Shown piece after piece: positions 6,962 to 27,698 of a stretch of DNA of 28,935 nucleotides; the first letter of the stretch is position 1, and each line of letters opens with the position of its first letter. This DNA is from a virus. Location of the stretch: positions 1 through 28,935 of IMG/VR virus record IMGVR_UViG_3300028829_004021. The stretch is one strand, 5' to 3'. The notes under the pieces were generated by a model. That model saw only the letters and a program-made list of their open reading frames with translations. It made no database searches and was not told where the DNA came from. A program made the position numbers and the translations under genes.

Positions 6962-8837
6962 CACAGAAACATTTTACCGCCCAGGGTATTCGATAACCGA
7001 CGAGGGGACTCGCGGCTATGTAGAGCATGATGATTTTGATTGCTACTTAGTCACCTTAGCTAACAAAGAAATTAAGATTGCTCTACATCCGAAAGAGGTC
7101 GAGTGGGAGCAGTTTGATGGGGCAACATTCTATTGCCACAACGCCAGCTTTGACCAAGCAGTTTTTTTGCAGATGCAGGTATTAGGAATAGTGCCAGACA
7201 TAAAAGTAAATTTCGTATGTACGGCAGATATGTGCGCATACTTTCAACTACCCCGAAACTTAGCAGGCGCTCTTAAAGCTATGTTTGATTACGAGATGCC
7301 CAAAGCGATGAGAGATTGGATGAAGGGTAAGACTTGGGAGGATGCGGTAGCAGAAGGTAAGTCAGAAGAGCTTCTTAAGTATGGTATCGACGATGCTATA
7401 TGGTGTTGGAAGCTTGTTGAGGCGTTGTATCATCTGTGGCCTGAGAATGAAAAGTTTCTTAGCCAATTAACTCGAGCGATGGGTTGGGAGGGATTGCCGA
7501 TGGCTGAACCTAAATTGAGAGAGGCAGTAAAAAGCATGGAGAAAGGGATCTGGGAAGTTCAAAGAAAACTACCATGGGTTGGGGAGATCGATCCCGACAC
7601 TAAGAAAGAGTACGCCCTATATAGTAAGAAAGGGTTGTCTGTTTATTTAAATAAATTAGGCTTAGAACCCCCTAAGTCTTTAGCTAAAGACTCGTCTGAC
7701 TGTGATAATTGGATCAAGCAACATGGGACTGTGTGTAGCTATGTAGCTGACCTACAGACATACAACCGAATGACCAAGCACTACAAATCATTGAAGAGAA
7801 TGTTAGAGCGAACGGGAGAAAACAATCGTATGTCTTACGGTTTAAAACTTTATGGAGCGACAGCAACCCACCGCTGGTCAGGTGAGTCGGGGTGGAACGC
7901 TCAAAACATGCCGCGATCTGCGCAGTTCGGCCAAGACATTAGGGGTATGATCTGCGCCCCTGACGGCCACCAACTAATAGTGTCCGACTCTGCACAGATT
8001 GAGCCTCGCACAATAGCAAAGATTGTAGGCGACAAAGCGTTTCTGGAATCGTGTTCCGCAGGGATCAGCCCATATGAGGCACACGCCCGCCTGTCCATGG
8101 GTTGGACAGGAGGCACATTAAAGAACGAAGACCCCGAAATGTACGCACTAGCAAAGACCCGTGTGTTAGGTTTAGGTTACGGTGCTGGATGGAAAAAGTT
8201 CTTAGACACGATCGCGGCCCAGGGGATGTTATCAATCCTTGAAGGCCCTTACGACTTTAACGATGAGAAAGCTTTTCTCTCATTTCTAGAATATGTGACT
8301 TCTCAATCTCACTTTATCGAGGTGTATGAGAATTCAACATACAACGAACGTAGGAATATGATTAACGCTTGGCTCCAAGTAATGGATTTTCGCAGAAAAA
8401 ACCCTCTAATAAAACAAGCATGGGATGCTCATGCTGAGGCATACAACCATGTAGGAGGGACTGGAGGAGACTACGACATCAATCTACCTTCGGGACGGGT
8501 AATGCGCTTTTTTAGAGTACGTCCCGAGCTTCAAGGATATAGTTGCACACATGCTAAGGGAGACAAGCGTAGGTTAAGAGAATACGGGCCGTCATTGTTT
8601 CAGAAAAGTGTGCAAGCGACAGCGCGAGACATCTTTGCTAGTCAACTATGCTTACTCGCTAAGCGTGGCGTCAAGGTCGTGCTCCATGTACACGATGAGA
8701 TCGTGGCCGAAGTTAAGGAAGATGAGGTAGATAAAAAATCAGAAATAATAAGAGAGTGCATGACTACAGCTCCAAGCTGGTGGCCAGACATCCCTCTCGA
8801 AACATCACTAGAAGTAACAAAGACATATTTAAAATGA
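6918..8837 (+). CDS. Family A DNA polymerase with 3'-5' exonuclease
   Basis: A 639-residue replicative polymerase without a 5' nuclease domain. Proofreading motifs: Exo I FDTET (Asp15, Glu17), Exo II NASFD (Asn75, Asp79), Exo III YGIDD (Tyr155, Asp159). Polymerase motifs: A, SDSAQIEPR (Asp357, Glu362); B, AKTRVLGLGYG (Lys413, Tyr421); C, VHDE (His592, Asp593). Aligned to E. coli Pol I, position 762 is Leu417, and the Arg754 position is Tyr409. In motif A the residue after the catalytic Asp is Ser rather than the common Tyr. The start encodes six Lys from an AAG repeat and overlaps the HTH gene. The stop shares ATGA with the next gene. Confidence 0.95.
   Translation: MKKKKKKEPIHVAFDTETFYRPGYSITDEGTRGYVEHDDFDCYLVTLANKEIKIALHPKEVEWEQFDGATFYCHNASFDQAVFLQMQVLGIVPDIKVNFVCTADMCAYFQLPRNLAGALKAMFDYEMPKAMRDWMKGKTWEDAVAEGKSEELLKYGIDDAIWCWKLVEALYHLWPENEKFLSQLTRAMGWEGLPMAEPKLREAVKSMEKGIWEVQRKLPWVGEIDPDTKKEYALYSKKGLSVYLNKLGLEPPKSLAKDSSDCDNWIKQHGTVCSYVADLQTYNRMTKHYKSLKRMLERTGENNRMSYGLKLYGATATHRWSGESGWNAQNMPRSAQFGQDIRGMICAPDGHQLIVSDSAQIEPRTIAKIVGDKAFLESCSAGISPYEAHARLSMGWTGGTLKNEDPEMYALAKTRVLGLGYGAGWKKFLDTIAAQGMLSILEGPYDFNDEKAFLSFLEYVTSQSHFIEVYENSTYNERRNMINAWLQVMDFRRKNPLIKQAWDAHAEAYNHVGGTGGDYDINLPSGRVMRFFRVRPELQGYSCTHAKGDKRRLREYGPSLFQKSVQATARDIFASQLCLLAKRGVKVVLHVHDEIVAEVKEDEVDKKSEIIRECMTTAPSWWPDIPLETSLEVTKTYLK
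6921..6938 (+). repeat. (AAG)6 triplet repeat read in two frames
   Basis: Six AAG units directly after the polymerase ATG encode Lys2-Lys7 of the polymerase and, in the upstream frame, six Glu near the C-terminus of the HTH protein. Unit gain or loss would stay in frame for both. Confidence 0.85.
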
Positions 8838-13378: not shown

Positions 13379-13422
13379 GGTTTTTCTTTACAAAACCCCA
13401 CATATTGTGGTTTACCTACGAA

Positions 13423-13476
13423 CTGTAAATCCGCCCGCTTCGGCGTTCGTCGGTTCGAATCCGACCCCTACCACCA
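13423..13476 (+). other. attP: attP core: 3' half of a tRNA-Tyr gene
   Basis: CTGTAAA (13423-13429) is the tRNA-Tyr anticodon loop with GTA anticodon. Then come the 3' anticodon stem TCCGC, a long class-II variable arm (13435-13448), a T arm GTCGG-TTCGAAT-CCGAC (13449-13465), the 3' acceptor strand CCCTACC (13466-13472), a discriminator A and CCA (13474-13476). The bases just upstream (ACGAA) do not pair properly with TCCGC, so tRNA identity begins at the loop. This is not a complete tRNA gene. It is the segment that restores the host gene after integration. Confidence 0.85.
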
Positions 13477-13484
13477 TTCTTTAT

Positions 13485-13821: not shown

Positions 13822-14161
13822 AACCCTAAAAAAAATAGGGCTTACAAAAGATCAAGTTATTAAAGCCACAGGTCTGCCCGCAAAAGCTATTAACGCAACT
13901 GCAGTTGTCGCTAGTAAAAGTAAATACCTATACGGCACGGATCAAAAAAGGATGCGTAGGAGGATGAAAACTTATGAGTCTTTCATAGTGGCTCGATTCG
14001 CAGAAGGATGGCACCCAGGCACTATAGCCAGAATCCTGTCAGTCTCGGAAGAAAGTGTGCGGAGTCGCCTAAGAAAACATTCAGTGTTTAAGAACGACAG
14101 CGTAGGCCGACCTCTTAAATCGAAAGCTTCCCTGCTAGGAATCCTAATGTCAGATCAGTAA
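13814..14161 (+). CDS. HTH protein, candidate regulator (115 aa)
   Basis: A basic protein with an Arg/Lys-rich centre (KRMRRRMKTYE, about 45-55) followed by a helix-turn-helix-like unit (about 57-90: GWHPGTIARILSVSEESVRS, then RLRKHSVF), similar in pattern to recognition helices of sigma-region-4/LuxR-type and small-terminase HTHs. It lies downstream of the palindromic site, so it is a candidate autoregulator or lysogeny regulator. A small terminase subunit is another option. The last 47 bases overlap the end of the convergent tail gene, with both frames read through. Confidence 0.5.
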   Translation: MSETLKKIGLTKDQVIKATGLPAKAINATAVVASKSKYLYGTDQKRMRRRMKTYESFIVARFAEGWHPGTIARILSVSEESVRSRLRKHSVFKNDSVGRPLKSKASLLGILMSDQ

Positions 14162-15854
14162 GTACCCAGGGGAAATCAGTGTGCGACACTATAAATAACC
14201 GCACTCGAATTCTTCTACCTCTTAAATTAATAAAAGACTTATGTTGGGTTTTTTGAAAAAGTGAACCTTTGAACCCGCCCTTCACCTGGCCGTCTTCGTT
14301 TTCAGCATAAACCCATAGATGGCCGTACGACTTTCCTTGGAATGTTGTTACGATTTCGTGTATCTGGTTTGGAACGTGGACTCCTTGCATATCTTCATAA
14401 GCTAACTCCACTACCGAAAGGTATGCGTCAGGGTAATATGTAGCATTCTGCAACACCGTATCTCCCACAGCAGAGTCAGCCATAGTGGATGCGTATGTTC
14501 TACCTCCGTAATTAAAAACACCAGCGTTAGAATCGACCTCAACTATAGATGTTGAATTTGGTGTAGTCCCATCGACACCGGTCCAAGGGTCAAAGGTAGG
14601 CCCTTCGATTATCCTAGACTCCTTCAGCTGTTCAGTGTCGCATGACATTAGTTGATTACTTGAACTAACCCCTAGCAACAGTGAGGTGTCGGCAACCGAA
14701 GTCACCGCGGTCATTCTCGGATGGAGTACTGGACCTACAATAGCTTGTTGTTGATCTGAATAATAATATCCTTGAAAGTCCCCACCAGACATTTCCGACC
14801 TTTCTGAGGCAGGCATATAGAAATTATATAACCCACTAAAAGTGTCATAGGTTGAAAACGCTCCTCTATAATCATCGGGCACAGCCTTATTCCAAAGCCC
14901 TTTGGCCTTAGCTGTTACTTGTTCGACATCAGAGTAAGCAGGTTTATTGTCAGGCCCACGCCTAGCGGAACTGTCCTTATATACTTCCCCATCTACACCT
15001 ACATAGTAAGGTTGGATAATAGCCGATCCAGCAACACAGTTTTGATTAATAGCCCCAGAGTTTGTAGCGGCCGAGACTTGCTCCACACGAAAACCGGCAC
15101 TCGATTGAGTTGTCTCAACTGAATAAAGAAGGACTACTCCTGAGTCTGTATGGACTACTACATAGTCTTGGTATGTGGATAGAGCATTAATCTTTGTGGC
15201 GTTTGTCCCAAGGATTTCGACCTTTGACATTTGACTTGAGTATATACCTTCTTTGAACGGATCCTCAGCACTAAGAGGTTCAGACACATAGATTGTTAAA
15301 GGTGTGTCAGGATTACCAGCAGCATAGATACACTTTCTTAACCCCATCACAAAAATGCTACAATTAGGAAAAGGTATATTCTCTAGTTGGTAGATATCTT
15401 TCTCATCAGCCACCAAGTCCTCGACCTGAACAGCTCCTCCTAATGGGTTAATCATTTTTTTAAGAGTCGTCCCATTACCTACTAAAGCTTTATTTGAACC
15501 TACATCATTTATAAATGCTTGGTTAGCGCCCGTCATAGTTGTTGCGGAGTTGAGGGAAATTAAATCACCTATGTTGGATGGGACTGGGTTTTCGTTAACA
15601 AAAACCTTCAACCCATCAACTTTTCCGTCTTTTGTGGTGAATGCGTATTTATTAAAAGTCGTGTCTTGGCCGACCATGACATGGCTTCCTGTTGAGGGAA
15701 TCACTAAAGGAAACTCTTCTTTCCAGATCGGTGCGGATCTTAAAGAACCAGCAGCGCCTAAAACAGCCCCTTCACATACACGTAGAGTTCCTCGATTGGT
15801 GTCTTGTCTATGGTTCTCAATTCCTGAGAATGAAGGTACTCTTAAATATCTCAT
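14115..15854 (-). CDS. Tail protein, 579 aa, beta-rich
   Basis: A large Ser/Thr/Gly/Val-rich protein with repeated short strands, including TYQDYVVVHTDSGVVLLYSV and VADTSLLLGVSSSNQLMSC, that suggest a beta-propeller or similar fold, and an Arg-rich end (RGRRIRVRLFIV). The layout resembles podovirus tail stabilisation or tail-hub proteins (P22 gp10-like), but I see no diagnostic motif. It is the last gene of the leftward tail unit, starting in an ATGA overlap with the gene at 15851. Its stop lies inside the convergent HTH gene (47-base overlap). A virion tail role is well supported by context; the exact role is not. Confidence 0.55.
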   Translation of the reverse strand: MRYLRVPSFSGIENHRQDTNRGTLRVCEGAVLGAAGSLRSAPIWKEEFPLVIPSTGSHVMVGQDTTFNKYAFTTKDGKVDGLKVFVNENPVPSNIGDLISLNSATTMTGANQAFINDVGSNKALVGNGTTLKKMINPLGGAVQVEDLVADEKDIYQLENIPFPNCSIFVMGLRKCIYAAGNPDTPLTIYVSEPLSAEDPFKEGIYSSQMSKVEILGTNATKINALSTYQDYVVVHTDSGVVLLYSVETTQSSAGFRVEQVSAATNSGAINQNCVAGSAIIQPYYVGVDGEVYKDSSARRGPDNKPAYSDVEQVTAKAKGLWNKAVPDDYRGAFSTYDTFSGLYNFYMPASERSEMSGGDFQGYYYSDQQQAIVGPVLHPRMTAVTSVADTSLLLGVSSSNQLMSCDTEQLKESRIIEGPTFDPWTGVDGTTPNSTSIVEVDSNAGVFNYGGRTYASTMADSAVGDTVLQNATYYPDAYLSVVELAYEDMQGVHVPNQIHEIVTTFQGKSYGHLWVYAENEDGQVKGGFKGSLFQKTQHKSFINLRGRRIRVRLFIVSHTDFPWVLTDLTLGFLAGKLSI

Positions 15855-16087
15855 TCTTCTGTTTTACCTTTTTCTCCGTAAGGAAACAAACGGTTGAGTT
15901 TTTCTTGGCGTTCCTTGCATCCTCCGCATGGTTTAATACCAACAGCTGATGTGATCTTTGCTATAGTATCGCCCAACCCTTCAGATACAATCACTCCTTC
16001 GGGTTTAGAATCAATACACTTCATCTCTTCCTCTGTTAGTTTCTCCCCATTTTGATAGGCTTTTATAATTTGTGCTATTTTTCTCAT
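15851..16087 (-). CDS. Small CGGC-motif phage protein (78 aa)
   Basis: The N-terminal half is a helical region (MRKIAQIIKAYQNG). The C-terminal half has a GDTIAKITSAVGIKPCGGC segment followed by KERQEKLNRLFPYG. This C-terminal pattern (a Gly-rich turn with C-x2-C then a Leu-Asn-Phe-Pro end) is one I recall from many marine phage proteins and prophage tail regions, with no assigned function. The two Cys may bind metal as part of a larger site. ATGA overlaps join it to both neighbours, so it is co-translated with tail genes. Confidence 0.6.
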   Translation of the reverse strand: MRKIAQIIKAYQNGEKLTEEEMKCIDSKPEGVIVSEGLGDTIAKITSAVGIKPCGGCKERQEKLNRLFPYGEKGKTEE

Positions 16088-20894: not shown

Positions 20895-21902
20895 TCAATA
20901 CCCACTACGTTTTATTAGACGCATCGGTTTTCTTTTCTGAGAGGAGTTCAAAGATTTTAATCTTACCTTCGCCTGCTCTCCGAGCCTTAATAAAGCTTCC
21001 CTATTGTCCCCATTATATCTTGGATCAGACAGCGCTAAATTAGCAGAAGCTATTGGGAATAATATATCCCAAGTAACGTTGCCTGGTAGGCGTACTACAT
21101 CATTATCGTTTGTCAACTCAAGAGGTAAAATGTTTGCCCGAACCCTTATGGATTGTGCTTCATCTGGTATTGGGTAAACACAGAACCGATTTCTCACTGC
21201 GCGTTTTGAAACATCTTCCGTATCTGCGCTTTCTGAATAAACCAACAGTTCGGAAGAATCGATGTAGTACCATAAAGGACGGTCGATGTGGTAGTCCCGC
21301 CCTCTATGTGTAATAGTCGGGACGTTCCCATAATGTCTTGAAGGAAATGGCATGAAATCGGTAGCGTAAGAAGCACGCATTATAATCTCTTGCTCTTTGC
21401 CTTGCATTGGAGAAAGTCTCCCCCACCCTACTACTTCAGGAGGGTCACATAGGTCGATCACTTCTCGATCCAACTCAAAAGAGTTAAAATAAACTGTCGC
21501 ATCAAACTGCCCTGAGCCCTTCGCCCAAGGCACTAAGACCTTTATATTTAGGCCGTTGATCTCAGATATTGTGTAAAACTCACCATCAATCTCGATATAA
21601 CTACCTAGATATTTATTCTCAACGAGAGCGTCTAAAACTACATCGTGACTGTTCTCTGTGACGGTCGCTTTTGTTTTTAAAGCTTTAGGTAAATTAATAC
21701 CATAATTCGCTACGGCCCAGTCGGGTCTAGCGCCGTCAGCAGGTGAATAACACTCTCTGTACGCTTGATTAACATATATACCTACCCGCTGCTGATCGAT
21801 AGGGGAAAGGTCGGAAATTCCGTCCGCCCCGTACAATGTAGCTAGCTGGTCTTTTAGATTTCCTAATGTAGGTATTACTCCTGATGTAAGGTTCTCGGCC
21901 AT
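20895..21902 (-). CDS. Head-to-tail adaptor-like protein (335 aa)
   Basis: The N-terminal ~55 residues are helical (LGNLKDQLATLYG, QQRVGIYVNQAYRECY), followed by a mixed strand region. The C-terminal part has VVRLPGNVTWDILFPIASANL and SDPRYNGDNREALLRLGEQA, a pattern I associate with adaptor/connector or tail-tube-A-type proteins of short-tailed phages. It is the first gene of the tail unit, directly after the bipartite late motif (21913-21946). Its stop is followed at once by the giant tail gene. The exact class is uncertain. Confidence 0.5.
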   Translation of the reverse strand: MAENLTSGVIPTLGNLKDQLATLYGADGISDLSPIDQQRVGIYVNQAYRECYSPADGARPDWAVANYGINLPKALKTKATVTENSHDVVLDALVENKYLGSYIEIDGEFYTISEINGLNIKVLVPWAKGSGQFDATVYFNSFELDREVIDLCDPPEVVGWGRLSPMQGKEQEIIMRASYATDFMPFPSRHYGNVPTITHRGRDYHIDRPLWYYIDSSELLVYSESADTEDVSKRAVRNRFCVYPIPDEAQSIRVRANILPLELTNDNDVVRLPGNVTWDILFPIASANLALSDPRYNGDNREALLRLGEQAKVRLKSLNSSQKRKPMRLIKRSGY

Positions 21903-21912
21903 GTTTGTATGC

Positions 21913-21946
21913 TACACAGGCTAACCGATTTAGACCAACGGTTGTA
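21913..21946 (-). promoter_or_regulatory. Late-promoter-like motif, copy B (tail unit)
   Basis: On the minus strand TACAACCG (21946-21939) is followed after 21 bases by GTGTAG (21917-21912; GTGTA matches copies A and C), about 15 bases before the adaptor ATG. It is one of three copies in this window. Confidence 0.6.
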
Positions 21947-22345: not shown

Positions 22346-22381
22346 AAAAAAAAGAGCCCTCCGAATACACAGAGGGCTCTT
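22346..22381 (-). terminator. Intrinsic terminator after the major capsid gene
   Basis: Read leftwards, AAGAGCCCTC and GAGGGCTCTT form a perfect 10-bp stem (22352-22381) with a 10-base loop, followed by a run of about eight T. It lies 20 bases after the capsid stop. This is a textbook terminator and marks the end of the scaffold/capsid unit. Confidence 0.92.
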
Positions 22382-22400
22382 AATAAATGAACTGATACTA

Positions 22401-23921
22401 TTAAGCAGCAGCTAAGCCAGGTACTTGACGAACCATCTCGATCATTTGAAGACCGGGAACACGTCCGTTTGTATCCTTATACGCAGCCCATCCTCTAACT
22501 CCCTGTATACCAATAGAGTTAAGGTGTGCTTGGTTTCCGGAGTTGGCATAGTCATCATAGTGAAAAATCTGTTCAGCATCGATTGCACCTTTCGCGTAAT
22601 ACAATGCGTTTTTCGCCATCATTAGACCATAGCAAGTTGGAACACCATTTGCGTCACAAGACACAATCATGTCACCGTCGCTGAAGTTGCCTGCACCCAA
22701 TAGAGTTGCACTAACTCCGTTTCCAGCTGCTCCTGTGGTTGTACCTATTTTAGTCACCCCAGTAAGCTGTGCTTTATCAGCACTTACACCAGTGTACTTA
22801 TAGTTTTGTACTTTACCACGATCTGGTCCTGACATCTTAATTGCTAAGAAGTAGAACTCTGGCGCAATGTCGTCCCACTGTGTATCTCCAGAAATGAGAT
22901 CCAACTGAGATTTACGGAAGTTCGCAAAGAAATCACCGGAACTTGCAGTACCGAGAGTAGTGTTATTACCGTCCCAAGCCAATGTTTCAGTACCTTTCAA
23001 GTAATAGATAGGAGCAAGAGGGCTTCCTTGACGTCCGTCAGCAGTATCAATGATATTGTTGTGCGAATGAATAAGGATGTTGTCCCACATTGCGTACTCA
23101 CCACTGAACAATTTATTGTCCGAGGAGCGAGAATCTGCATAATGAATTGCGTTCAGATAATCTGAGTCACCACGAAGAGGACGAAGACCAGCGTCAGGTG
23201 CAAAGAATAGGTAACCTGGAATCTCATGTCCGCTTTTTCCATCGGTACGAAGATTTGTAGGCTCACCACCAGTTGCGATAAGACGTTGTTTCATATGCTC
23301 GAGAAGATCTGTTGAAAGACCGTCTTTTGCATAATCGAGGTTTCCAGAGTTGGAACCGTATTGCTCAAGAGTGTTTTTCTCACCGAGAAGCGCACAAGTT
23401 TGACGAGCAACATACATTGAATCGTCTTGCTCTTTACGGGCATACCACTCGGACATAACTTCCGAAGAAAGTTGGTCGAGAGTTTTACCAGTAAAACGCA
23501 TAAGTTTAAGAACTTGTGTCCAGGATACAGCATGACGGATAAGGTCAACTTCAACTGGGAATGTTCCGAACTTAAGAGATTCAGCGCTGTTCTTAAGGAT
23601 TGCTTCCCCAAGTACACCTTGTCCACGAATAGGAGCTACAGTTGTGAATACAACTTTATCAGATCCTCCTGCGGATAGGTCGCGTTTCTCTACGATTGGT
23701 TTGCCGCTACCTTCTCCTCCGATAAAGTCTTTAAGGACGTTTTTTTCCCGAGCGTCGCGTTTTACGAGTTCGGACCAGAGTTGAGTGCGTAATTCAGCCG
23801 AACCTTGATTTCCTACGATAGAAGCGTAAGAAGCTGGTGCGCCTGTACTTGAGTTTAATAAATCAACGTTAGTGCCTGCGAGGTTTGCGCCGGCATTTGA
23901 ATTTGGAATGATTTTAGCCAT
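22401..23921 (-). CDS. Major capsid protein (HK97-fold, N4-gp56/DUF4043-like)
   Basis: A 506-residue protein with the pattern of the N4-gp56/DUF4043 capsid family: a helical N-arm with ELRTQLWSELVKRDAREKNV, then GGSDKVVFTTVAPIRGQG and FGTFPVEVDLIRHAV typical of the E-loop/P-domain start, a long helix with MSEWYARKEQDDSMY, and a conserved beta end QMIEMVRQVPGLAA. It forms the icosahedral shell. It directly follows a scaffold-like gene and is closed by a strong terminator, as expected for a highly expressed capsid gene. No Shine-Dalgarno is visible; the upstream 30 bases are almost all A and T. Confidence 0.85.
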   Translation of the reverse strand: MAKIIPNSNAGANLAGTNVDLLNSSTGAPASYASIVGNQGSAELRTQLWSELVKRDAREKNVLKDFIGGEGSGKPIVEKRDLSAGGSDKVVFTTVAPIRGQGVLGEAILKNSAESLKFGTFPVEVDLIRHAVSWTQVLKLMRFTGKTLDQLSSEVMSEWYARKEQDDSMYVARQTCALLGEKNTLEQYGSNSGNLDYAKDGLSTDLLEHMKQRLIATGGEPTNLRTDGKSGHEIPGYLFFAPDAGLRPLRGDSDYLNAIHYADSRSSDNKLFSGEYAMWDNILIHSHNNIIDTADGRQGSPLAPIYYLKGTETLAWDGNNTTLGTASSGDFFANFRKSQLDLISGDTQWDDIAPEFYFLAIKMSGPDRGKVQNYKYTGVSADKAQLTGVTKIGTTTGAAGNGVSATLLGAGNFSDGDMIVSCDANGVPTCYGLMMAKNALYYAKGAIDAEQIFHYDDYANSGNQAHLNSIGIQGVRGWAAYKDTNGRVPGLQMIEMVRQVPGLAAA

Positions 23922-23954: not shown

Positions 23955-24977
23955 CTACCTTAAATGACGGGTCCCATCTGGCTGACCTAGTAAGTTGTAA
24001 AGATCTTGAGTGCTCAGTTGAGTTATATCCCCGACACCTCTGGAAGAGGGGTTAATCGGTTGACTCGTGGCTCCAGATGTCAACATTCTAGCTTGCTGAG
24101 TATTTGGTGGAGGGCTCGATTGTTGGGCTTCTTGAACGACAGGCTGTGCCTGTGCTGGAAGTTGTCCCTTCATTGTGCCGAACTCTCTCGCCATTAACTC
24201 AGGCCATCTAGAGGACTGAAATATTGGAGCGTAGTCTGGGTCGCTTTGTGCTAAATCTACGAAATGATCGAACTCCTTACGATACATTGATGTATCGTTA
24301 GCTAGTTCGGGAAATTCCGAGACCGCTACATTGCGGCTCTCCGTAGAGCGGGCTCTACGGGATTGTTCTTGTGCGCTACGAGAGCGCTGAACATACATAT
24401 CTCTCTTAGTTTCGACCTTTTGAATCTGTAACTGCTTGTTCGTTATCTGCTGTTGCAGTTTAATTGCTTCTGCAGTGTCCATATTCTCTGCGGCCTCTAA
24501 AACTTTCGAGTTTAGTTCATCAATCTCACTTTGTACATGTCCGACATAATCTTTAACTTCCTTAACATAGTTTCTGGGCGGTGGAGCCTCAGCAGCCTGT
24601 TGTGGAGCTTGCGCAGCTTGAGGCTGGCCGTAGATAATGGAGCTTGCGTCTGCAAACGTTCCCTGAAAACCTTCGCTACGATATAAATCGATAACTTGCT
24701 GGTCTTGGTCACTTTTGGGACGGATCCTTCTCTTAGCTAACCGCTCATCATCAACCCCTTCAGGGATCTCCGACTCTGCGCTTTGTATGTCATTTTCAGG
24801 TACAGCCTGGTCTTGACTCTCGATGTCCGCAGCACTAACTGGCTGGTTTTGTAAACCGTCTAACGGGTTTTCGGACTCGGCACTTTGACTTAGGAGGTTG
24901 CGAAGGTCGTCAGTAGACACGTTCTCAACCGATTCGGTTTGTTGGGGGGAATCAACCACCCCGGTTTCGTTTTCCAT
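23955..24977 (-). CDS. Scaffold-like protein (340 aa)
   Basis: An acidic, low-complexity N-terminus rich in Glu, Ser, Gln and Asp (1-90) is followed by a Gln/Ala/Pro linker, a long coiled-coil helix (about 140-205, YVKEVKDYVGHVQSEIDELN through the KLQQQITNKQLQ region), a helix-rich middle, and a Gln/Pro/Ser tail ending in a short helix (DITQLSTQDLYNLLG). This composition and the position directly before the major capsid gene fit a scaffolding protein, which guides shell assembly and is then lost. Late-motif copy A lies just before the ATG. Confidence 0.7.
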   Translation of the reverse strand: MENETGVVDSPQQTESVENVSTDDLRNLLSQSAESENPLDGLQNQPVSAADIESQDQAVPENDIQSAESEIPEGVDDERLAKRRIRPKSDQDQQVIDLYRSEGFQGTFADASSIIYGQPQAAQAPQQAAEAPPPRNYVKEVKDYVGHVQSEIDELNSKVLEAAENMDTAEAIKLQQQITNKQLQIQKVETKRDMYVQRSRSAQEQSRRARSTESRNVAVSEFPELANDTSMYRKEFDHFVDLAQSDPDYAPIFQSSRWPELMAREFGTMKGQLPAQAQPVVQEAQQSSPPPNTQQARMLTSGATSQPINPSSRGVGDITQLSTQDLYNLLGQPDGTRHLR

Positions 24978-24987
24978 GCTCTATGTA

Positions 24988-25021
24988 TAACACGGTAAAG
25001 ATTTAAAATCTAACGGTTGTA
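24988..25021 (-). promoter_or_regulatory. Late-promoter-like motif, copy A (scaffold/capsid unit)
   Basis: On the minus strand TACAACCG (25021-25014) is followed after 20 bases by GTGTTA (24993-24988), which leads into TTATAC, a fair -10. The scaffold ATG follows about 10 bases later. The spacer holds a perfect AGATTT-A-AAATCT palindrome (24999-25011). Confidence 0.65.
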
Positions 25022-25026
25022 TTTAT

Positions 25027-25302
25027 TTAGCACTTCCAACGCGCTCGAGCTGCTTTGCCTCGTTCACCCTTCCAACTTTTAGAGCGAGAGCAAAAAGCTT
25101 TACGCCGTTTTGCTGCTTTACTGCCTTTTTTGACTTTACCAGTAACGGCGGTCTTAAGTTTAGAACCAGGGTTGGCTTTGCGATATGCGGCCACCCCTTT
25201 TTTAGTCATACCTGCTCCGGCCTTAACTGTGCGGTAGTTAGCTCCTTTACCCTTAGTGGTTTTTGGAATCCGCTTACTTGGCTTTCTTTTAGTAGCCACC
25301 AC
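25027..25302 (-). CDS. Small, very basic KNPGSK-type phage protein (91 aa)
   Basis: About a third of residues are Lys or Arg. The middle and end carry TKKGVAAYRKANPGSKLKTAVTG and then KKGSKAAKRRKAFCSRS and a GKAARARWKC end, a pattern I recall from a conserved marine and cyanophage protein family of unknown function (I believe DUF6321, not checked). Its start is GTG 25302 or GTG 25299; no ATG is available upstream of the conserved part. It overlaps the 47-residue gene by about 14 bases. It may bind nucleic acid or serve inside the virion. Confidence 0.65.
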   Translation of the reverse strand: MVATKRKPSKRIPKTTKGKGANYRTVKAGAGMTKKGVAAYRKANPGSKLKTAVTGKVKKGSKAAKRRKAFCSRSKSWKGERGKAARARWKC

Positions 25303-27273: not shown

Positions 27274-27630
27274 TTAAGTTAAAGTTATAGCGGCGCTATC
27301 TGCTGGAGCAGAATCACCTATAGCGTTACTTGCATACACCCGATATATGAAATCACCAGTGTTGGATTCAGAATATCTGAGGGTAAATGTGTTTCCAGAT
27401 GTGCTTGGAGCTGCTCCAGTAGTTGGGGCAGTCAACACACCGTCGTTTGATTGAGCTGTGTCAATCACTTCTCTAGTATAATCCCAGACAGAAGTCCCGG
27501 TATTATATGTAATAGTTGCTAGCAGCTCGCTATTTCCGCCTGTTGGACTTTGGCCAGCAGCGCTTCGATAAACTCGGAATAAATCCTCGTTAGTGGAGTC
27601 GTCTTGAAAAGATACTTGTACAGTTGCCAT
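27274..27630 (-). CDS. FN3-like beta-sandwich protein (118 aa)
   Basis: A Ser/Thr/Gly/Asp-rich protein with a strand order typical of fibronectin type III or related Ig-like units: LFRVYRSAAG, LLATITYN and DFIYRVYASNAIGDSAPA then a closing strand. Such domains decorate phage tails and capsids and help weak surface binding. It is the first gene after late-motif copy C and a 19-bp palindrome, and lies upstream of the lysis genes. Confidence 0.55.
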   Translation of the reverse strand: MATVQVSFQDDSTNEDLFRVYRSAAGQSPTGGNSELLATITYNTGTSVWDYTREVIDTAQSNDGVLTAPTTGAAPSTSGNTFTLRYSESNTGDFIYRVYASNAIGDSAPADSAAITLT

Positions 27631-27648
27631 GATAATAATTGGTTAATG

Positions 27649-27667
27649 GTTACTCTATTAGAGTAAC
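27649..27667. promoter_or_regulatory. Perfect 19-bp palindrome (9+1+9)
   Basis: GTTACTCTA-T-TAGAGTAAC is a perfect inverted repeat around one base. It overlaps the GTGTTA box of late-motif copy C and lies about 20 bases before the FN3-like ATG. It could be an operator, or a 7-bp hairpin with a 5-base loop in the leader. There is no T-run after it. Confidence 0.6.
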
Positions 27668-27698
27668 ACGACCAAAAGCTAAAGTCTGACCGGTTGTA
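27664..27698 (-). promoter_or_regulatory. Late-promoter-like motif, copy C (FN3/lysis unit)
   Basis: On the minus strand TACAACCG (27698-27691) is followed after 21 bases by GTGTTA (27669-27664). The gap between genes here is 74 bases. The start codon of the unit lies at 27630, farther away than in copies A and B. Confidence 0.6.

Follow-up and report, generated by a model that had tools for sequence, protein, structure and literature searches.

The 28,935 nt stretch of viral DNA analysed here (IMG/VR record IMGVR_UViG_3300028829_004021, hereafter the window) carries, ahead of genes on its minus strand, copies of an element that comparison with relatives redefines as the hexamer CAACCG at predicted positions -42 to -37, a T at -35, and a sigma70-type -10 hexamer (TAnnnT) 24 bp downstream of the box. 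These sites are probably late promoters, at which the host housekeeping (sigma70-type) polymerase would act with the help of an activator that the phage encodes and that would bind CAACCG, as in class II activation. The numbering takes the start codon as +1, which places the hexamer at offsets 30-35 exactly at -12 to -7. Conservation, fixed geometry and gene content strongly support a dedicated late promoter class, as an earlier note on this DNA had proposed, and this class is not reported in the literature searched, which took in few subscription papers.

Copy A has the upstream box TACAACCG at 25014..25021 (core CAACCG at 25014-25019, predicted -42 to -37) and the -10 hexamer TATACA at 24984..24989 (predicted -12 to -7), all copies being on the minus strand. 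Its predicted +1 is the start codon, at 24977, of a scaffold-like gene (23955..24977, minus strand; PHROG head scaffolding match, E=0.007; same position in relatives), which forms one unit with the major capsid protein gene downstream of it (Phage_capsid_3; 22401..23921, minus strand). Directly 3' of the capsid gene lies a strong terminator-like hairpin with a T run (22352-22381, minus strand), so that the scaffold-capsid unit would end before the next gene. Copy B, with TACAACCG at 21939..21946 and the hexamer TAGCAT at 21909..21914, has as predicted +1 the start codon at 21902 of an adaptor or tail-tube-like gene (20895..21902, minus strand), recognised by a weak SU10_adaptor match below the Pfam cut-off and by PHROG tail matches. 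Copy C (TACAACCG at 27691..27698, hexamer TACTCT at 27660..27665) has a box-to-(-10) spacing longer by one base and a predicted +1 near 27653, with a leader of ~23 nt up to the ATG at 27630 of a small gene (118 aa; 27274..27630, minus strand) that is Fn3-like by eye and has no Pfam or PHROG match.

The earlier note had located these three copies as pairs of boxes, placed each pair in an intergenic gap directly before leftward genes, and judged the pairing unlikely to be chance, and all of this holds: TACAACCG-N18..23-GTGT occurs exactly three times in the window, always on the minus strand (21946, 25021, 27698), with 0 expected in shuffles, and the gaps holding copies A, B and C, before the scaffold, adaptor-like and small gene respectively, measure 48-74 bases. 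Its further statement that no other copy was found is correct for that two-part pattern and fails for the CAACCG box, of which a fourth copy, D (15896-15854, minus strand), precedes a tail gene: the box at 15891..15896 overlaps the end of the preceding gene, a -10-like TAAAAC occupies 15861..15866, and the ATG at 15854 of the late (tail) gene (579 aa; 14115..15854, minus strand; no family match) is the predicted +1. The second box that the note had read as GTGTWA we reject, since relatives conserve TAnnnT and not GTGT; in the window copies GTGTWA marks the left-hand margin of the -10, its final two bases opening that hexamer. TACAACCG is also found at 7761-7768 on the plus strand, within the DNA polymerase gene and without a partner box. 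Directly upstream of copy A, 25027-25302 (minus strand) encodes a small, highly basic protein that matches DUF6321 and starts with GTG.

Scanning viral_contigs with the major capsid protein (MCP) yielded 92 relatives, of which 80 were kept (50-73% identity), and the cultured phage collection gave no match to this protein at 1e-5; the phage family carrying the promoter class is large, uncultured and tailed, without a close cultured relative. One further relative, at 77% MCP identity, is a contig (L245, CALIKS010000023.1) binned in an 'uncultured archaeon' MAG, probably by misbinning, and carries promoter copies A, B and C. A motif search in relatives, also suggested beforehand, finds the box again ahead of the scaffold gene, mostly at a fixed distance: among the 76 contigs in which the scaffold start is visible, CAACCG lies at 42 nt in 64 and at 43 nt in 5 (69/76), CAATCG is present in 4, and neither box in 3. 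Contigs L079, L080 and L081 share the same scaffold N-terminus and have no CAACCG box upstream; this lineage perhaps uses a different late promoter. The first scaffold codons (24944-24977, minus strand) are conserved at the DNA level, as GGGGTGGTTGATTCCCC in the window and GCGGAGGTTGAATCCCC in relatives, which may reflect protein constraint, (E/V)V(D/E)SP.

A DNA-only pattern, CAACCGGTT-N21-TAnnnT-N6-ATGG, matched 84 stretches in a scan of 2.9 million viral contigs, and a reversed-box control pattern in the same contigs matched 15 altogether. We read 80 of the matches: 67 open the scaffold gene of the window's phage family and 13 open no evident relative. Matches that precede an ORF in the long relatives fall mainly at scaffold, adaptor, tail, tail-fibre-like and Fn3-like genes; a small gene lying ahead of a terminase-like ORF was recognised by position and by eye only, the families searched giving no support. 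No comparable sites occur in the MCP regions compared from LASTA, Itty13 and Atu_ph08, cultured phages with ~24% MCP identity.

The distance from CAACCG to an ORF start is 42 nt in 134 cases (81 sequences), the next commonest distance accounting for 10, and for control hexamers not overlapping the box no single distance occurs more than 9 times; in 13 contigs of 29-71 kb and the window, CAACCG is mostly 42 nt from the start codon in several gene contexts. Deduplicated logos of the scaffold (n=31), adaptor (n=25) and tail (n=6) sites have in common CAACCG, a T at offset 7, and T30-A31, the last at 94/94%, 96/96% and 100%, respectively, with T35 strong in the scaffold logo and at 96% in the adaptor logo. 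At the tail sites, and in much of the adaptor group, coding sequence from upstream extends into the box, so conservation there is possibly in part coding. Sites with other start distances have nAnnnT at offset 30 in 29/52 cases vs a mean of 5.4 over offsets 8-59, and CAACCG inside genes has no such peak (23/279, mean 19.4). That the box-to-(-10) spacing is kept where the start distance varies indicates that the constraint is one of promoter geometry, and the hexamers kept there carry the A-11 and T-7 of a sigma70-type -10.

As had been recognised before, the box lies farther upstream than a -35 hexamer could. The -35 slot lies directly downstream of it and is degenerate, with TTGA at -35 to -32 common at leadered sites and TTAC or TAG elsewhere, the T at -35 being nearly invariant; the box is thus better described as an activator site abutting the -35. 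Given a -10 hexamer at -12 to -7, a conserved site at -42 to -37 has the class II arrangement, and its centre, near -39.5, differs from that of a T4-type box, which replaces the -35 and is centred near -30. An ECF-sigma promoter was rejected on the excessive distance from box to -10, and an archaeal-type promoter was rejected by eye, there being no consistent TATA box near -26 and an att sequence that resembles bacterial tRNA-Tyr. This sequence (13400-13480, in the gap beside the integrase gene) resembles the 3' half of the tRNA, with a GTA anticodon, a long variable arm and CCA, and is probably the attachment site; ARAGORN finds no complete tRNA there, and no match was found in 299 sampled Pseudomonadota genomes or two MAGs.

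From this architecture we infer a phage-encoded activator that would bind CAACCG directly upstream of the weak -35 slot and, from -42, touch sigma region 4 at -35, whereby the host polymerase would use a promoter with a weak -35 while host sigma region 2 reads the -10 through A-11 and T-7. Made early, such an activator would switch on the virion genes as a set. Its best candidate is P1 (2217..2750, plus strand), a lone sigma70 region-4-like protein (Pfam Sigma70_r4, E=7.8e-9; sigma region-4 structures in PDB, E=1.9e-15), an assignment we hold tentatively, at a little short of an even chance. P1 has the region 4.2 helix-turn-helix (HTH), with RERxRQI conserved in 9/9 aligned homologs, and is not a complete sigma factor: the matches cover region 4 only, without region 2, residues 1-87 are predicted to be disordered, and the structure model is confident over the HTH region only (mean pLDDT 57.6). 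Homologs are present in all eight other long relatives spanning the region, plus G319, and missing from two contigs, both of which end around that region. In 10/10 genomes P1 and the late genes are encoded on opposite strands, which is what an early product should show. Co-occurrence, opposite-strand placement and a recognition helix identical to that of sigma make it plausible that P1 reads the box.

It is possible, at a lower probability, that the architecture is as described and the box is read by another phage DNA-binding protein, in particular P2 (13814..14161, plus strand), a second conserved small HTH protein. P2 is better conserved than P1 and co-occurs with the promoters almost as well; it is found in 11/14 sequences searched plus G319 with a well conserved HTH, its fold weakly resembles LuxR/NarL-type and sigma region-4 HTHs, and its gene adjoins the late module. 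Searches of PDB by fold returned nothing at E<=0.001. However, G010, a 54-kb sequence that may be a fragment, yielded no P2, and P2 lies on the late-gene strand in 10/13 genomes, as a late product would, whereas P1 lies opposite, which favours P1 as the reader. An attempt to trace box specificity through sequence change in P1 or P2 was uninformative, because the recognition helices of both are unchanged in the CAATCG clade (G319). Among the window proteins searched there is no region-2 partner, and a selection of these proteins scanned against Pfam and PHROG shows no AsiA or MotA. Neither P1 nor P2 matches the RinA, ArpU or Ltr families in Pfam, and 18 records gave no PF00940 match to a T7-like RNA polymerase, the control set being likewise without a match.

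P1 might also act by sigma appropriation, as a replacement sigma domain that displaces host sigma region 4 on the polymerase and reads the box as a shifted -35, which we consider unlikely. A sigma-like region 4 behind a disordered N-terminus, with no region 2, would suit this role, as would the degenerate canonical -35 slot of many of these promoters; but the box is displaced ~7 bp upstream from where a -35 normally lies, the T4 MotA box that does replace the -35 element is centred near -30 (PMC6755090), and many sites have TTGA at exactly -35 to -32, the keeping of which suggests that host region 4 stays on the DNA. Binding of the sites by a host regulator instead of a phage factor is very unlikely: it gains from the phage reader being still a candidate only, but the box is conserved across MCPs of about 50-77% identity, probably in several hosts, and real promoter matches in the DNA-only scan are limited to the window's phage family.

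At scaffold, adaptor and tail genes the -10-to-ATG spacing predicts leaderless mRNAs, and their late transcripts should start at or within ~1 base of the start codon; copy C and the relatives' tail-fibre and Fn3-like genes would keep a leader of roughly 13-75 nt. Ribosome-site-like sequence precedes 0/69 scaffold starts, and family-wide it is scarce (19% of ORFs vs 15% in a control stretch). The scaffold group has inverted repeats around the -10 at 15/31 sites, where column shuffles average 5 and reach 13 at most (300 shuffles, shared ancestry not fully removed), and in the adaptor group such repeats do not exceed the shuffles (4 vs a mean of 4.2). Copy C has a perfect inverted repeat, GTTACTCT-AAT-AGAGTAAC (27649-27667, minus strand), across the -10 and the predicted start; in its L245 counterpart, GTTATTTT-AAT-AGGGTAAC, pairing would be kept via G-U pairs, and in L004 it is not kept. 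That the sites are not promoters but elements acting in translation or RNA structure ahead of start codons is scarcely credible: the fixed 42-nt distance to the start codon and the scaffold repeats would fit such elements, but where the start distance differs the spacing is held to the -10 and not to the start codon, and the constrained positions are the sigma70 -10 positions A-11 and T-7.

For late promoters activated in the class II manner, a more specific scheme, improbable as a whole, has P1 binding the inverted TTG (CAA) of the box while host sigma region 4 occupies the adjacent -35 slot; with two region-4 domains side by side, the entire virion gene set would then be transcribed without leaders, and the -10 inverted repeat of many scaffold promoters would prevent translation of read-through transcripts. 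The architecture amounts to a sequence rule for the late promoters of a large family of uncultured phages, for which a single scan gave 92 capsid relatives; the rule predicts transcription starts almost to the base and is accompanied by two named candidate readers. If P1 is the reader, this would be a new use of an isolated sigma domain to redirect host polymerase, and the predicted leaderless virion mRNAs would couple late timing to another way of initiating translation.

Several known systems share parts of this arrangement. SigO/RsoA of Bacillus subtilis is a split sigma factor whose regions reside on separate proteins, including a lone region-4 protein like P1; unlike that pair, the window's phage has no region-2 partner among the proteins searched, and host sigma would supply region 2. 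In class II activation, for example by lambda CI at PRM, the activator site abuts the -35, a position suited to contact with sigma region 4. The window family likewise has its putative activator site next to the -35, but the box is short and only partly palindromic, the candidate reader is itself sigma-region-4-like, and the role is in late genes. Papers on sigma region-4 contact are listed in PMC2988021. T4 middle promoters, which work by sigma appropriation (AsiA/MotA), also combine a phage factor with host sigma70 polymerase, and an upstream box with a -10 element, the MotA box being centred at about -30 in place of the -35 element (PMC6755090). The window-family box, by contrast, is at -42 to -37 and would control late virion genes.

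At the middle and late promoters of Thermus phage P23-45 the host sigmaA polymerase is redirected and transcripts are leaderless. Redirected host polymerase and leaderless transcripts are the likeness to the window family, where they are predicted only; no CAACCG box is known at the P23-45 promoters. These promoters belong to the extended -10 class, and Gp39, a protein acting on sigma region 4, has less effect on them (PMC7403470). For Ltr, from phages of Gram-positive bacteria, the proposed binding site is a set of repeats upstream of a single late promoter (PMC13123087). RinA, ArpU and Ltr resemble the proposed activator in that a small (~130 aa) phage protein turns on the late operon from an upstream site; in the window family, unlike these, several promoters have one fixed-geometry box in common.
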